In this document: positions 2,179-9,006 of the stretch, one piece after another
Position numbering within the stretch: the first letter of the stretch is position 1
How the letters are laid out: every line of letters starts with the position of its first letter
NCBI GenBank assembly: GCA_902583415.1
Contig: CACHVW010000002.1
Coordinates: forward strand, 1 to 60,422
Source of the DNA: an uncultured SAR116 cluster alpha proteobacterium
GTDB taxonomy: Bacteria; Pseudomonadota; Alphaproteobacteria; Puniceispirillales; Marisalimonadaceae
Direction: 5' to 3'
Length of the DNA stretch: 60,422 nucleotides
Program-made: the position numbers and the translations under genes
The notes under the pieces: generated by a model
Told to the model about the DNA's origin: nothing
What the model saw: only the letters and a program-made list of their open reading frames with translations
The model's database searches: none

Positions 2179-2227
2179 ACTTTCATAATGAAATACTAAC
2201 CATCTATATGATTCATAAAGCAAGGAT

Positions 2228-2342
2228 AGTGTAATCAGTGTCACTGGCACATAAGATGTGCTTACAGTGGCTGTATGAGTCTGTATGAGTCAGGGATGGG
2301 TGTAGATAGATATGTATTGTTAGGGTGTGCAGCAGATGGGGT
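2228..2342 (+). repeat. Left copy of a 115-bp inverted repeat
   Basis: This segment matches the reverse complement of 4434-4548 at 108 of 115 positions without gaps. It contains a hairpin, CACTGGCACAT then AAG then ATGTGC, closed by CAGTG, and a tandem CTGTATGAGT doublet. It ends ten bases from the stop codon of the lyase-like gene. A degenerate 37-base piece recurs at 3401-3438. Confidence 0.93.
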
Positions 2343-2352
2343 GAGAATTCAA

Positions 2353-3264
2353 TTATTTTAAATAATCTGGCATTTTGTCTGAGATTTTAATTCTATCAAA
2401 ATATAAAGTTTTTAGAGGCATCTTTAACTTCCAGTCAATTTTCCATGGTTCGTTGGTATAGCTTTTGCTACTTCCAGATTTACCTTTCCCTGTTTTATCT
2501 ATCCACCCTTTTACATCTGCTTTATAACCAGCTTTAATGTTTTCAATATATAACCAGCGACTTACATAAGAATGATAGATACCATATTTAAAATTAACAG
2601 CTTTAGATTTAAATTGTCCTACTTCTTTTTTAGAGATGACATTTTTTAATACATTTTTATTAAAACAAGGAACTTTAACTCTTTTTTTATTAATCCATAA
2701 GGTGGCTAAACTTTTTCCAACTTGAGGGTCATATTTATTTTTGTAAGATACAAAAAAATCTATATCTGTCCACTTGTCATACATTTTACTTATTGGATAT
2801 ATCCTCTTACATTTTCTTCCAATTGTATTAAATTCAAGATTTAAAAATATTCCACCCATTCCATCTTCTGCAAGACCAAACATCCAAACTGGGGGTCTCA
2901 CTTTTTTTATTTTTGCTTGGGCTATTGAAGTAAATCTTGTTGGATTAAAATCTTTAGGAACATAAATTGAAAAAGTGTAAAAAGCTTTGTGCCTATTTAC
3001 GTAATCAGTTCGTCTTTCTACTCTACCTCTATCCATGTTACAATCTGAATAACCATCTTCGCCCTTACCACAATCACCATGTCCTAACATAAATTTTTCA
3101 GAAAATTCTCCTTCTCTTACAATTTCTGTTTCTTTTGAAAAAGTTGGTTCACCAGTTGAACTTACTATTTCTGCACTTACAGGCAATTCTAAATATCCAA
3201 ATAATTCTTCTGCGTAAGATGAACTGATATGAATTAGAAAAAATAATAAAGTAATAAACTTCAT
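2353..3264 (-). CDS. Secreted polysaccharide-lyase-like protein
   Basis: A 303-residue protein with a clear signal peptide (residues 1-18, MKFITLLFFLIHISSSYA), so it is exported. The body is rich in beta-strands and has an Arg/Glu/Arg-rich stretch (RVERRTDY near 80-90), then a pattern of strands and WMFGLAEDG-type turns that resembles the heparin-lyase-I-like jelly roll of polysaccharide lyases. Several cysteines (GHGDCGKG, YSDCNM, RKCKRI, VPCFNK) may form disulfides. Substrate is unknown and the lyase call is tentative. GAGAG precedes the ATG. It is enclosed by the 115-bp inverted repeats, which suggests island cargo. Confidence 0.55.
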   Translation of the reverse strand: MKFITLLFFLIHISSSYAEELFGYLELPVSAEIVSSTGEPTFSKETEIVREGEFSEKFMLGHGDCGKGEDGYSDCNMDRGRVERRTDYVNRHKAFYTFSIYVPKDFNPTRFTSIAQAKIKKVRPPVWMFGLAEDGMGGIFLNLEFNTIGRKCKRIYPISKMYDKWTDIDFFVSYKNKYDPQVGKSLATLWINKKRVKVPCFNKNVLKNVISKKEVGQFKSKAVNFKYGIYHSYVSRWLYIENIKAGYKADVKGWIDKTGKGKSGSSKSYTNEPWKIDWKLKMPLKTLYFDRIKISDKMPDYLK

Positions 3265-3400
3265 TAACTCTCAACATTCTTTAATTAATAAATATATATA
3301 TGTAATTTTTTATTAAAATTTATATTAAATCAAGACTATTTTTATGTAATATCCTACTCATCCACATCATATCTTTATGCATGGTACATTAAGTTCTGGC

Positions 3401-3438
3401 TAGATATGTTTAGTTAAGGTGTGCAGCAGAAGAGGTGT
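3401..3438 (+). repeat. Degenerate third copy of the 115-bp repeat end
   Basis: A 37-base stretch beginning TAGATATGTTTAGTTA matches the right part of the 2228-2342 repeat (from 2306) at 32 of 37 bases in the same orientation. It lies between two minus-strand genes, just downstream of the 3509-3850 gene. The rest of the 3265-3508 gap is AT-rich with nothing else recognisable. Confidence 0.75.
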
Positions 3439-3508
3439 TATTCTATTGATACAGCATGTAGATAAATATTACCGTTAACCCAAGCATTATTGTGAATTTT
3501 TATATACT

Positions 3509-3850
3509 TCAATCATAATAATCCATTATGTTGATAGCTCTTGTTGCTGCTCTTTTAATAGTCATACCATGGAAAAAATTTTGGTTGTCTGCCATCATTT
3601 TTCCCAATAACTCTTGTCCTTTCTTATAGGCCACTTCATCTTTATACTCAAAAATTTGTGATATTGCATATCCACCTTGTTTATTCCAAACCCTATTAAA
3701 CCTCCATCTAATTAGTCCTACTTTTTTTAAACTCTTGTAAAAGTCATCAGCCATTTTTTCAAATTTACTAATATATAATTCCATGTCAGATTCACTTGTA
3801 AAATCAACTAAGGTATGACTTATAAGTTTAGCGCTAACAATCTCAACCAA
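3509..3850 (-). CDS. Small alpha/beta-barrel-like protein, function unknown
   Basis: A 113-residue soluble protein, not recognised by name. Strand-helix-strand spacing, a GGYAISQIFEYKDEVAYKKG segment and a C-terminal helix resemble dimeric alpha/beta-barrel proteins such as ABM-domain or NIPSNAP-like families. No active-site residue is evident. The start is TTG at 3850-3848, chosen because AAGGAG lies seven bases upstream and no ATG fits. The stop codon of a decayed NTF2-like gene is only 14 bases upstream, so the two were probably once co-transcribed. It sits inside the region bounded by the 115-bp inverted repeats. Confidence 0.6.
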   Translation of the reverse strand: MVEIVSAKLISHTLVDFTSESDMELYISKFEKMADDFYKSLKKVGLIRWRFNRVWNKQGGYAISQIFEYKDEVAYKKGQELLGKMMADNQNFFHGMTIKRAATRAINIMDYYD

Positions 3851-4326: not shown

Positions 4327-4433
4327 TTTTTCCTCTTTTAATTTAAATTAATTATAAAAGTACATAATAAGTAATAACATATTTGAATATAAACCATTTA
4401 TTTTTATAAAAAATATCACTCAACTCTTTAAAA

Positions 4434-4548
4434 ACCCCATCTGCTGCACTCACTAACAATACATATCTATCTACACCCATCCCTGACTCATACAGACTCA
4501 TACGGCATCTGTAACCACATCTTATGTGCAAGTGACACTGATTACACT
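4434..4548 (-). repeat. Right copy of the 115-bp inverted repeat
   Basis: Reverse complement of 2228-2342 with seven mismatches and no gaps. The central hairpin core (CACAT-AAG-ATGTG) is kept, although flanking stem bases differ. Together the copies enclose about 2.1 kb: the lyase-like gene, a small gene and two gene remnants. A further 18-base piece of the repeat end (ACCCCATCTGTTGCAGAG) occurs at 4600-4617. Confidence 0.93.
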
Positions 4549-4868
4549 GACACTACTGTATGACTCTCTATGACTCATTAAAATGGTTAACACTATTTAC
4601 ACCCCATCTGTTGCAGAGCTTATGAATACTATACCTACAAGGGCGGGGTGGCACACGTGTGGGGTAGGATAACACTTATAGTGTTACAGTTAAGTAATAC
4701 ATATTCATGTTCACGTTCTCTATACTAAGAACGCTAATTTAGTTTGTAACATTTAGGGTAGACCAAACGGTAGACCATTTTGTGCCTGTTGACACAGATT
4801 CAGGAATACATAAACTGAGGGTAGAGCTTGTATTCAACTACAAGTGGTGCACTGTAGATGAGCATAAC
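4549..4868. other. Gene-free stretch with short palindromes and a recombinase-type motif
   Basis: I see no coding region here. It holds an 18-base fragment of the 115-bp repeat end (4600-4617), a hairpin TAACAC-TTATA-GTGTTA (4670-4686), an inverted pair GTTCT-N8-AGAAC (4715-4732), and a two-part motif at 4756-4781 (GGGTAGACCAAA, then CGGTAGACCATTTT). That motif matches the integrase start region (minus strand, 6512-6487) at 23 of 26 positions. These could be recombinase or excisionase binding sites, but that is inference. Confidence 0.5.
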
Positions 4869-4965
4869 TTCTCGCTACCCGCTCCATCTCATGTAAATCA
4901 GTCGCCCTAAGTAGTTGATATGTAAGCATATTTTGTAATGTGTGCTTGGAGGGTAGACCAAATGG
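4869..4965 (+). repeat. Left copy of a perfect 97-bp inverted repeat with a tRNA-Gly 3' end
   Basis: Identical to the reverse complement of 6498-6594 over 97 bases. It begins with TTCTCGCTACCCGCTCCA, the last 18 bases of the tRNA-Gly gene including CCA. An ATATG-TAAG-CATAT palindrome follows (4918-4931), then GGAGGG (4948-4953) and the ATG at 4962-4964 of the next gene. Identity stops one base after that ATG's following G. Base-by-base comparison supports the boundaries. Confidence 0.97.
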
Positions 4966-5351
4966 GTTTGTTTAAAGGTAAAGACAAGTTATCCATTTTC
5001 CAAAGGAAGCATGAAACCTATCTCTATGAATTAGTTATGGAAGAAATAGCTAACAATGAACGTCAAAAAGGCATATGGGGTCAAGCAATAGTTAAGTCAA
5101 ATGGTGATGAAAAAAAAGCTGAAGCTGAATATATCAAATTAAGAGTTGAAGCTTTGAAAGATGAAATAGAAATACAAAAACAGGAGGAGACTGAAAAACA
5201 AATTCTTAATGAAGAATTAGAAAAATTAGCAGAAGAAAATGAAAATAAGAAAATAATTGAAAATGCTACAGACAAAAGAGTATTTACAGTATCAGTCACT
5301 ATTTCATTGGTTGCCTTTTTAATAATAATTGTTCTACTAGCTAATAGTTAG
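4962..5351 (+). CDS. Small Glu/Lys-rich tail-anchored membrane protein
   Basis: A 129-residue protein of unknown function. The N-terminal half has the pattern ETYLYELVMEEIANNERQKG then W..A....GDE.KAEAEYIKLR, a motif I associate with small bacterial membrane-proximal proteins (recollection, not checked). Residues about 65-100 are a Glu/Lys-rich probable coiled coil. One C-terminal transmembrane helix (about 107-126) ends two residues from the C-terminus, so the body is probably cytoplasmic. The start at 4962 follows GGAGGG by eight bases; an in-frame ATG at 4938 lies upstream of that site and is less likely. Start and leader are identical to those of the integrase. It is convergent with the integrase, with a four-base gap. 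Confidence 0.7.
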   Translation: MGLFKGKDKLSIFQRKHETYLYELVMEEIANNERQKGIWGQAIVKSNGDEKKAEAEYIKLRVEALKDEIEIQKQEETEKQILNEELEKLAEENENKKIIENATDKRVFTVSVTISLVAFLIIIVLLANS

Positions 5352-5355
5352 TATT

Positions 5356-6501
5356 TTATAATGCTCTAATCCATTTGAGTAATACGTTAATATCATATCC
5401 TTTACCATAACCCTGTCCTATACTTCTTAAACTCCATCCACCTAATTGGTCAATAATTTCTGAGGGACATTCAATAGCTCTTAATCTGTCTCTAAAGCTA
5501 TGCCTAAGTCCATGAATTACATAATCATTTATCAGTTTCTCTTTAAGCCATTTATTTAAAGTTGCACTTGCTGAGTTAGTGTTGCATTCTTTTGGGGAAG
5601 TATATCTTGGGAAGGCATATATACTATCATTATTATACTCTAGGATTCTTTTACATGCCCAAAGCGATGCTCCTACAAGTGGTATACATCTTTCGCTTCC
5701 TTTAGTTTTTAGACGTCTCCATGGATGAGGAATGAGTCTTATATGAGGTATTTCAGTATTGAGATTAATGTCTGATTTTAGTAATCCAACACCTTCACCT
5801 AGTCTCATTCCAGTGTCACTTAACAATGCAATCAACCATCTTAAATCATCATCATATTCTCTACATAAAGATTGGATATACTTAATATCTTTTATTGGAA
5901 TTGGCTTTCTAATTTCTACATTATTGTTCTCTGGCATATAAGTTTTACTGAAAGCATTAATACAACTAATACCTTCTTCAGTTATTGATAGATTTATTAT
6001 TGAACGGATAGACGAGAATATTCTTTTAACAGATGATATCAATAAGCCTCTATCTATCAAGTAGTCACGGAACTTGGATGCATCTTTACTACTATAGACA
6101 TCAATAGGTAAATCACCCAATAACTCAATTACATATTTGATGTTTCTGTTAGCAGTACGGACAAATAACTTATTTTTACCTTCACCTTTAAGTTTCAGAT
6201 AAGTGGTGAGAGCTTCTGACAATAAAGGTGCATTTGAATTGATATTTAAAGGTGGTTTGCTCACAAGCATATGTTTGGCAGGAACTTGCATCTTAGTTAG
6301 CCTGATAGATGTCCAATAATCATCAAGCTTTTGATAGAGTGATTTACTTGAACGAATAGCTGATACATTTGATTTGGTTCTAAGGCATATAACTATACGG
6401 TCACTCTTATAATATGACCTTACATCACACGGAACACGCTTACTGAAATAGTAAACACCACGCTTTTTATATAAGTAAGAAACATTAAATTGGTCCACCA
6501 T
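5356..6501 (-). CDS. Tyrosine recombinase / integrase
   Basis: A 381-residue site-specific recombinase. The C-terminal catalytic domain shows Arg233 (SDTGMRLGEG), the HGLRH box (His330, Arg333), a Trp in place of the second His (GGWS, 356) and a candidate nucleophile Tyr in GQGYGKGY (365 or 369). The N-terminal part resembles the SAM-like core-binding domain of phage-type integrases. It starts 76 bases from the tRNA-Gly 3' end and reads away from the tRNA, the usual layout for an element integrated in that tRNA. ATG at 6501 is chosen because GGAGGG precedes it; the upstream in-frame ATG at 6525 lies ahead of that site. The tRNA promoter may also transcribe it. Confidence 0.93.
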   Translation of the reverse strand: MVDQFNVSYLYKKRGVYYFSKRVPCDVRSYYKSDRIVICLRTKSNVSAIRSSKSLYQKLDDYWTSIRLTKMQVPAKHMLVSKPPLNINSNAPLLSEALTTYLKLKGEGKNKLFVRTANRNIKYVIELLGDLPIDVYSSKDASKFRDYLIDRGLLISSVKRIFSSIRSIINLSITEEGISCINAFSKTYMPENNNVEIRKPIPIKDIKYIQSLCREYDDDLRWLIALLSDTGMRLGEGVGLLKSDINLNTEIPHIRLIPHPWRRLKTKGSERCIPLVGASLWACKRILEYNNDSIYAFPRYTSPKECNTNSASATLNKWLKEKLINDYVIHGLRHSFRDRLRAIECPSEIIDQLGGWSLRSIGQGYGKGYDINVLLKWIRAL

Positions 6502-6594
6502 TTGGTCTACCCTCCAAGCACACATTACAAAATATGCTTACATATCAACTACTTAGGGCGACTGATTTACATGAGATGGAGCGGGTAGCGAGAA
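6498..6594 (-). repeat. Right copy of the 97-bp inverted repeat
   Basis: Perfect reverse complement of 4869-4965. It covers the integrase ATG, its ribosome binding site, the leader, and the last 18 bases of the complete tRNA-Gly gene (6577-6594). Beyond 6594 the tRNA continues, while the left copy diverges, so the boundary falls inside the T-loop, a normal crossover region for tRNA-targeting integrases. Confidence 0.97.
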
Positions 6595-6650
6595 TCGAAC
6601 TCGCGTCATTAGCTTGGAAGGCTAAGGTCTTACCACTACACAATACCCGC
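6577..6650 (-). tRNA. tRNA-Gly (anticodon TCC)
   Basis: Cloverleaf on the minus strand: acceptor GCGGGTA/TACCCGC, anticodon stem TTAGC/GCTAA around loop CTTCCAA (anticodon TCC), T-arm GCGAG-TTCGATT-CTCGC, discriminator T and encoded CCA. It is the apparent integration target of the adjacent recombinase. The gene is complete; the island supplies none of its body upstream of the T-loop. Confidence 0.96.
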
Positions 6651-7785: not shown

Positions 7786-9006
7786 TTATGCAATATTTGA
7801 ATAAGTATATTTTTCAGTTTTTTTGAAAGCATATTTAAGTGCAATAGTTAAATCAGAAATCATTTTTTCTGTATGTAAAGGTCCTGGTGTAACTCTTAAT
7901 CTTTCTGTACCAACCGGAACAGTTGGATAATTAATTGGCTGTATGTAATGTTTAAACTCATTTAATAGAATATTACTAATTTCTTTACATCTTATAGGGT
8001 TATTTACCATTATTGGAACTATGTGACTCTTATTATCAATAAAATTTATGTTTTCTTTGGCCAGATATTTTTTGAGTAAAATTGTATTTTTTCTTTGCAA
8101 CTTTCTTTCTTTATCAGATTTTTTTAAATAAGAGATAGAAGTGTTTGCAGCCTTTAGAAGTGCAGGTGGTAATGCTGTTGTAAATATATATCCACTAGCA
8201 TAACTTCGTATAGCATCGCAGATTATGTTTGAAGATGCAATATACCCACCCATTGTTCCAAATGCTTTTCCTAATGTTCCTTGAATTATATCAATAGAAT
8301 TTTGTAATCCTAATTCTTCAGTTACACCTGATCCTTTTTTCCCATACATACCAACTGCGTGAACTTCATCTAAATAAGTTAATGCATTATATTTTTTTGC
8401 TATCTTCGATATTCCAGAGATATCTCCAAAATCACCATCCATAGAATAAATAGATTCAAATATAATAACTTTAGGTTTTTTTTCTGGATATTTTTTAATT
8501 AAGGCTTCTAAATGGTTTAAATCGTTATGTTTGAAAATTTCTTTTATGGCTTTTGATTTTTTTATACCTGAAATTATTGATGCATGATTTTTTTCGTCAG
8601 AAAAAACAACTACATTCCCTAATAAATTCAGAAGGGTACTTATTGTTGATTCATTTGCTACATACCCAGATGAAAATACTAATGCCTTTTCTTTCAAATG
8701 AAAATCAGCCAGCTCATTTTCTAATTCTACAATAGCATTACTATTTCCAGATATATTGCGTGTTCCGCCTGAACCTGTTCCCATCCTTTTAACTGAATTT
8801 ATCATTGAATTTATGACAAGTTTATTTTGACTCATTCCTAAATAATCATTTGAACACCAAACAATTATATCATTTTTTTTTGAGTCTGATATCCAAAAAG
8901 CATTGGGGTGCTTACCTACTTTTCTTTCAATCTCGTTGAAATGCCTGTATCTACCCTCGATTTTAAGTTTATTTAGGGATGATTTAAATATATCTGAATA
9001 ATTCAA
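7786..9006 (-). CDS. hemA: 5-aminolevulinate synthase
   Basis: Condenses glycine and succinyl-CoA to 5-aminolevulinate (C4 pathway), which in bacteria is typical of alphaproteobacteria. The 406-residue PLP enzyme shows NDYLGMS near 53-59, [12 protein letters not shown] (76-87), Asp213 and His216 in YLDEVHAVG, and the PLP lysine Lys247 in TLGKAFG. The start is TTG at 9006-9004, with a weak AGGT upstream; residues from MNYSDIF onward align with the family N-terminus. It is the first gene of a hemA-hemH pair and diverges from dksA across a 160-base gap. Confidence 0.96.

Follow-up and report, generated by a model that had tools for sequence, protein, structure and literature searches.

Why would two unrelated genes carry one and the same leader in mirror image, each with the end of a tRNA gene attached? 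The locus that raises this question lies in the window, the whole 60,422-bp stretch of DNA analysed here (contig CACHVW010000002.1 of an uncultured SAR116 cluster alphaproteobacterium), where a first-pass annotation had pointed to an inverted repeat and had offered a phase switch, an inverted second integration or a self-contained element as explanations. Comparison with relatives revealed dozens of elements that carry a mirrored copy of tRNA end plus leader; their tRNA genes are those for Gly, Leu, Phe, Arg, Asn and Thr and, once, selenocysteine. In complete elements this copy is a whole second attachment site (attP) whose arms stay in step with those of the first.

The mirrored leader in the window

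Positions 4869-4965 are, as annotated, the perfect reverse complement of 6498-6594 over 97 bp, with 1532 bp between the arms, and chance would not be expected to produce so long a match. The repeat does begin with the last 18 bases of a tRNA-Gly(tcc) gene (6577-6650, minus strand; called by ARAGORN), and the window sequence bears out that the arms give two unrelated genes a common leader, ribosome site and ATG. Identity runs through the ATG but ends at the G that follows it, not one base beyond ATGG as had been stated. The arm next to the tRNA starts an open frame for a 381-aa tyrosine integrase (5356-6501, minus strand) with the Pfam domains DUF6538 and Phage_integrase; with regard to an IntI-type integrase as in integrons, its best NCBIfam match scored 26 of 220 bits, far under the cut-off. 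The other arm starts a convergent gene of 129 aa (4962-5351, plus strand, from the ORF list), and the two frames stop at 5356 and 5351, leaving the four-base gap described earlier. Judged by eye, the product of this second gene is charged with a C-terminal hydrophobic stretch; it fell into no convincing family, with a Pfam match under the cut-off (E 0.0053), a PHROG of unknown function (E 0.0014) and no NCBIfam match up to E 0.01. Both frames are open upstream of the likely ATG (4938-5351 and 6525-5356), and both genes could begin with the octapeptide MCAWRVDQ.

Attachment sites of complete elements

Six complete elements were aligned at their sites, and in all of them attL reads left flank, core, P', an internal site reads P, core, P', and attR reads P, core, flank. 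The core consists of about 14-18 bp of tRNA end and recurs as direct repeats at the element ends, with core-to-core lengths of 3146 to 6886 bp; on the left, five of the six are flanked by a called tRNA and the sixth, L075, which sits downstream within an array, by other DNA. The alignment shows that the full attP is P-core-P' and that an integrated element holds a second, intact attP in inverted orientation. The 97-bp arms of the window therefore correspond to core-P', and the internal copy, joined to P, to a whole inverted attP. On the same comparison, P' bounds the integrase module and P the cargo module, with the internal attP between them. Since the complete relatives are each one element with three sites, in which the inverted copy is the internal attP, an inverted second integration becomes superfluous, and the idea of a self-contained element pointed in the right direction. 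The contrast that had been drawn with normal tRNA islands, on the ground that these have direct repeats, fails, as complete family members have direct and inverted repeats.

Inverted P arms of 197-435 bp and 94.7-100% identity enclose the cargo in seven elements (L075, L079, L080, L088, L103, L106 and L122, the last being counted among these pairs and excluded from the six aligned elements). Among the 19 elements that have a P' repeat and a downstream sequence of 8 kb or more, just 5 had such a pair, a number that a looser search did not raise; the rest may have longer cargo or decayed ends. Each complete element has one full integrase, and L122 has a further integrase-like ORF of 276 aa.

Applied to the window, this comparison places attL at 6498-6594 (minus strand), with the core at 6577-6594, the 3' end of the target tRNA gene, followed by the P' leader with ribosome site and integrase ATG. 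The internal inverted site, attP2, comprises the second arm of the repeat (4869-4965, plus strand; core at 4869-4886, then P') and, abutting the core, the inner part of the P arm (4755-4868, plus strand). Beyond the arm at 4869 lies more element DNA (about 4430-4868), which, by comparison with the relatives, makes the arm part of a complete attachment site. Its outer P region (4430-4754, plus strand) has a homologue in the corresponding position next to a second element, on contig C66, and further copies on C49, and an inverted copy of part of it (2210-2342, minus strand; 89% to 4434-4566) is possibly a remnant of the cargo module's far end. The likely cargo is a polysaccharide-lyase-like gene (2353-3264) with a DUF6974 gene (3509-3850), together 2353-3850 on the minus strand, and the relative L106 carries a near-identical DUF6974 protein as cargo. 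A direct core copy with up to three mismatches was not found in the window stretch searched, and no attR was detectable there; the contig starts at window base 1.

Distribution of the family

For the survey, regions were hand-picked among the matches listed, with long matches favoured and part of the matches taken. The 118 integrase hits became 117 after removal of one duplicate and comprised 25 fragments and 92 near full-length copies. In 75 of the 92, the window's included, the integrase directly follows a called tRNA (Gly, Leu, Phe, Arg, Asn or Thr); among the other 17, four are cut by the contig start (L013, L093, L120 and L155) and five adjoin other or partial tRNA ends (L075, L077, L092, L096 and L143). 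A near-identical inverted copy of tRNA end plus leader, of at least 45 bp and at most 3 kb after the integrase, was present in 60 of the 92; where the downstream sequence reached 3 kb or more, it was present in 37 of 53. The 32 copies that failed this rule include some in which the copy is farther off (L122, L126), shorter (L112, L127, L140) or cut by a contig end (L104, L064); at the tRNA-Gly(gcc) loci L101, L132, L133, L134 and L153 it was not found despite at least 6 kb of downstream sequence. As a control, none of 30 sampled alphaproteobacterial PF00589 recombinases (39 genomes) had such a flanking repeat, a sample with no tRNA at any locus, so that tRNA-linked integrases are not represented in it. 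Among 30 DUF6538 loci of the phylum, three had the repeat, one being the window's own, in a search that reached 1.5 kb past the domain and thus often put long integrases out of range. These elements are a recurrent family of small mobile elements that sit behind tRNA genes, in marine alphaproteobacteria and in some others of the class.

An integrase match (E <= 0.001, fragments counted) occurs in 81 of 101 related genomes. The named genome collection yielded 18 loci, 16 of them in SAR116 cluster draft assemblies and two in SCGC alphaproteobacterial drafts, which, going by their naming, we take to be single-cell assemblies. A class-wide sample gave matches at E <= 1e-40 in 13 of 389 genomes, six of them outside the order. 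The inverted leader copy was present at five of seven loci outside the order, at tRNA-Gly(ccc), tRNA-Thr, tRNA-SeC, tRNA-Phe and a tRNA-Arg-like end, where the integrase carries a stop, and was absent from the two loci at tRNA-Leu; genome G672 also shows it. In G251, a family element (L172/L254) lies behind a gene that ARAGORN called as a selenocysteine tRNA. The window's own genome has three integrase matches, two of them full length, and the second full-length integrase, on C66, is bracketed by an inverted repeat of 81 bp (98.8%) with arms before the ATG and just past the stop. Homologues of the DNA at about 4430-4868 lie beside the C66 element, on C49 and on C64, and some P-region homologues in this genome are relics whose core resembles a tRNA-Arg end.

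A phage origin was considered and rejected: 17 stretches in viral contigs matched a pattern and none encoded a relative in a search for close relatives, and the 20 phage records listed of 556 matched only the query's tRNA end.

Could the repeat be an artefact of assembly or amplification in draft or single-cell genomes? The window is contig C2 of a fragmented 1.5-Mb genome (117 contigs, estimated 68% complete), the 18 named relatives are all drafts, and several contigs end in or near such repeats. However, the same architecture recurs in other alphaproteobacterial families outside the order and in the single-contig genomes G058, G063 and G069, which hold four of the six complete elements (L103 in G058, L088 in G063, L075 and L079 in G069). 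This rules out an artefact as the general cause, and we regard it as a vanishingly small risk for the layout described here. As a separate case, the tRNA-Leu(taa) gene of L076 (G068, contig C47), with about 450 bp upstream of it, recurs about 5.2 kb on as a 576-bp inverted repeat of 99.7% identity, which may be a real rearrangement or a draft-assembly chimera.

Twin arms and the genes between them

In 55 of the 60 elements, those with arms of at least 55 bp and at least 85% identity, arm identity had a median of 98.9% and a minimum of 88.7%, and 22 of the 55 pairs were perfect. Across 84 element pairs, which overlap and are not independent, 1288 sites had changed in both arms versus 109 at which the arms of one element disagree. 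This implies that one arm is copied onto the other or that the arms are made anew. Identity of the twins is not obligatory, because the twin P' of L087 and of L088 are not homologous; the internal P' of L088 is unlike the one in its attL. Downstream in L088, in its single-contig genome, lies a perfect inverted repeat of 931 bp (4856-5786 and 7888-8818 relative to the integrase), possibly the arms of a second, larger element.

What stands between integrase and second arm varies. Among the 60 elements, 20 have less than 60 bp there, 23 a convergent ORF and 17 something else; the 23 ORFs have at least 60 aa and start near the second leader, and most, not all, abut the integrase. Relatives with integrases 84-90% identical to that of the window share the leader but have different second genes, and module genes include DUF6974, DUF1330, DUF2938, polyketide-cyclase-like, Rieske and amidohydrolase genes (some sequences being partial, and the Rieske gene not convergent). 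Such widely differing gene families, and the 23 elements of 60 in which a convergent ORF of at least 60 aa begins at the second leader, would suit a structural relic, that is, a head-to-head duplication of attP that arose once and was kept mainly since the second gene profits from the promoter in P and the leader, while the mirror orientation plays no part in recombination. Yet the 20 elements without a second gene still keep the inverted arm, mostly near-identical, and identity extends to the cargo-side P arms, and we consider this reading improbable.

Small DUF6974 proteins recur as cargo or second gene (window 3509-3850, L106, L108 and L089), and similar-looking ORFs were seen by eye on the own-genome contigs L011 and L012. 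The larger elements encode a protein of 455-508 aa (L080 3106-4473, L103 3796-5322 and L122 6971-8404, relative to the integrase start). Its motifs (DYSQ..., HDSF) recall, in our estimation, family-A DNA polymerase; none of the three had a Pfam match, and the L080 copy, the only one compared with PHROGs, gave 1e-42 against PHROG 4756, a family of unknown function.

A promoter-like sequence in P

Counted from the core end, a TTGACA-N16-TAAACT site, exact or slightly varied, lies in P at about -73 to -91 in most elements with enough sequence. The strict pattern TTGACn-N16-TAnnnT was present between -100 and -60 in 38 and missing in 11 of the 49 elements (those of the 60 in which the sequence extends 120 bp or more past the second arm), compared with a mean of 0.05 and a maximum of 1 in 200 rounds of dinucleotide shuffles. 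Outside the order, it was found in only one of five P arms of sufficient length. A consensus of the 49 sites has the TTGAC box as its best conserved part, and a P' block, TTGATaTgtAAGCAT, is partly conserved. Within the order, this establishes a conserved pattern in which a putative sigma70-like promoter in P is aimed through the core at P' with its ribosome site and ATG. The window's version lies at 4789-4816 (plus strand) and points through core and P' to the second gene. Taken alone, the region around it has 9 promoter-like sites versus 12.4 in shuffles; support for the candidate comes from its conservation in the family, not from the single match.

Repeated motifs (GGTAGACCA in the window) are found both in P and across the start codon in P', and we infer that they bind the integrase. 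The repeated motif GGTAGACCAAACGGTAGACC at 4757-4776 in the P arm resembles the motif over the start codons in P' and may play an arm-type role.

The arrangement of sites shows that integration parts the integrase from the conserved promoter-like sequence, whereas the second gene keeps P. Our most likely reading, held tentatively and at a little under an even chance, is that the family comprises promoter-splitting, self-silencing, tRNA-targeting elements whose twin mirrored attPs are kept identical by exchange. In the circle, both genes of the integrase module would be read from a promoter in P. Integration via the site in front of the integrase would cut the integrase off from P, with read-through from the tRNA remaining, and the second gene would retain its promoter. 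Exchange between the twin arms, by site-specific inversion or gene conversion, would keep them identical, and an integrase left behind P would keep recombining until it is parked beside the tRNA or broken. For the parts taken jointly (a working promoter, repression of the integrase, use of the twin for inversion or conversion, and an orientation latch) our confidence likewise stops short of one half, because no more than 5 of 19 elements had the pair of P arms and no more than one of five P arms outside the order had the strict promoter pattern.

Orientation of the integrase module

In a survey with one genome per species, the tRNA-proximal gene was the integrase at 75 loci and the second gene at one (L087 in G076); the corresponding binomial p of 2e-21 takes the loci as independent, and the elements share ancestry. 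An integrase that recombines until parked or broken would explain why it nearly always comes first. Part of this bias needs no latch: of 1273 tRNA-linked integrases in general, 736 lie behind the tRNA in the same direction, more than in any other layout (PMC2951348).

The bias bears directly on the phase switch of the first-pass annotation, in which the integrase would flip its own module at comparable rates both ways and thereby swap the gene beside the tRNA. Inverted identical sites, whose activity is inferred, do flank the module, both start signals would survive a flip, and one copy, L087, has the second gene first. A freely switching module is nevertheless hard to reconcile with 75 integrase-first copies against this one, and L087 is not a simple flip of the others: its order is tRNA, second gene, and integrase backed by a full attP, with a tRNA-side leader that is not a copy of P'. 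We therefore give a phase switch very little credence. Slightly less still goes to the idea that the circle flips during replication through its two inverted sites to gain extra copies, like the yeast 2-micron plasmid with its FRT sites. The circle would be halved by two, and only two, inverted recombinase sites; however, no replication gene was recognised in the ORFs put to Pfam, and this scheme predicts random integration orientation, which is not what was observed.

The main rival, unlikely but ahead of the other alternatives, is a single-strand route. Here the element would move as single-stranded DNA, and pairing of its two inverted attPs would create the double-stranded site for integrase-mediated joining to the tRNA, a mechanism comparable to that of CTXphi or of integron cassettes. 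The integrase-first orientation, for which the bias is strong, would then be set by strand polarity, and hairpin repair would keep the arms identical; the arms span the whole attP, are near-perfect and would be able to pair, and CTXphi folds two opposed attP-like sites in its (+) strand (PMC3089051). Against this, the sites are 1.1-4.4 kb apart versus about 90 bp in CTXphi, and no relaxase or replication initiator was recognised in the 11 of 41 complete-element ORFs put to Pfam. A route in CTXphi style would use host XerCD; the element carries its own integrase.

Eight integrases were found behind a P arm (L079, L080, L087, L090, L117, L125, L151 and, assigned by eye, L122 at 14781), three of which (L079, L080 and L122) occupy downstream places in tandem arrays. 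Six of the integrases behind P were flagged by a loose promoter rule, which also hit upstream of 11 tRNA-adjacent integrases. Stops occur in three of the eight and in four of the 75 tRNA-adjacent ones (Fisher p 0.018, a small, post hoc comparison of classes assigned partly by eye and with common ancestry), an excess that is suggestive. Five of the eight are intact, so an integrase driven from P is tolerated.

Discussion

Our data suggest a compact model in which an integrase would switch itself off by position and a single-gene cargo slot would be read from the promoter of an attachment site. They bear on how very small elements (3-7 kb) shape the genomes of ocean bacteria, and the repeats may explain why several draft contigs end beside tRNA islands. 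Stated more broadly, we consider it possible, with slightly less assurance than the preferred reading, that these elements form a symmetrical class with either a self-silencing orientation latch or twin sites that fold for single-stranded integration by a tRNA-targeting integrase. If true, latch or folding would be a mode of integration control without a description in the literature searched.

Textbook integrative elements have one attP, which is split on integration. Inverted twin attPs in a tRNA element are not described in the literature searched, which consisted mostly of titles and the starts of abstracts with subscription journals mostly uncovered, and the same literature held no paper on DUF6538. 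The family fits the broad class of tRNA-targeting integrative elements with a tyrosine integrase of the Campbell type, and shares with such islands and prophages insertion at a tRNA 3' end with the tRNA restored, an integrase directly behind the tRNA, repeated motifs over the integrase start and, in the six complete relatives, direct core repeats at the ends; by analogy, autoregulation of the integrase is plausible. The yeast 2-micron plasmid, which replicates and does not integrate into the chromosome, encodes the tyrosine recombinase FLP, and its two inverted FRT sites divide the circle; the family resembles it in having a tyrosine recombinase and two inverted sites that would halve a circle, and differs in that it integrates into the chromosome. 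Tycheposons, too, carry cargo at tRNA genes of aquatic bacteria and have a tyrosine recombinase. They measure 4-200 kb, and an inverted attP goes unmentioned in the available part of a text on them (PMC10872708).

In KplE1, attL overlaps the promoter of the integrase gene intS (PMC2951348). Unlike such Campbell-type islands, complete members of the family hold a second, whole attP in inverted orientation, and inverted arms enclose each of their two modules. Two oppositely oriented attachment sites on one element are also found in CTXphi (attP1 and attP2); as described in PMC3089051, these are short, dif-like, about 90 bp apart and recombined by the host's XerC and XerD, whereas the present elements have whole, arm-bearing attPs at least 1.1 kb apart, their own integrase and a tRNA target. 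SEs, finally, are likewise integrative elements with tyrosine recombinases and inverted end motifs, and carry a four-gene set (IntA, Tfp, IntB and Srap) and a 6-bp spacer (PMC10214605); the family described here has, in contrast, a single integrase and a core formed by the 3' end of a tRNA gene.
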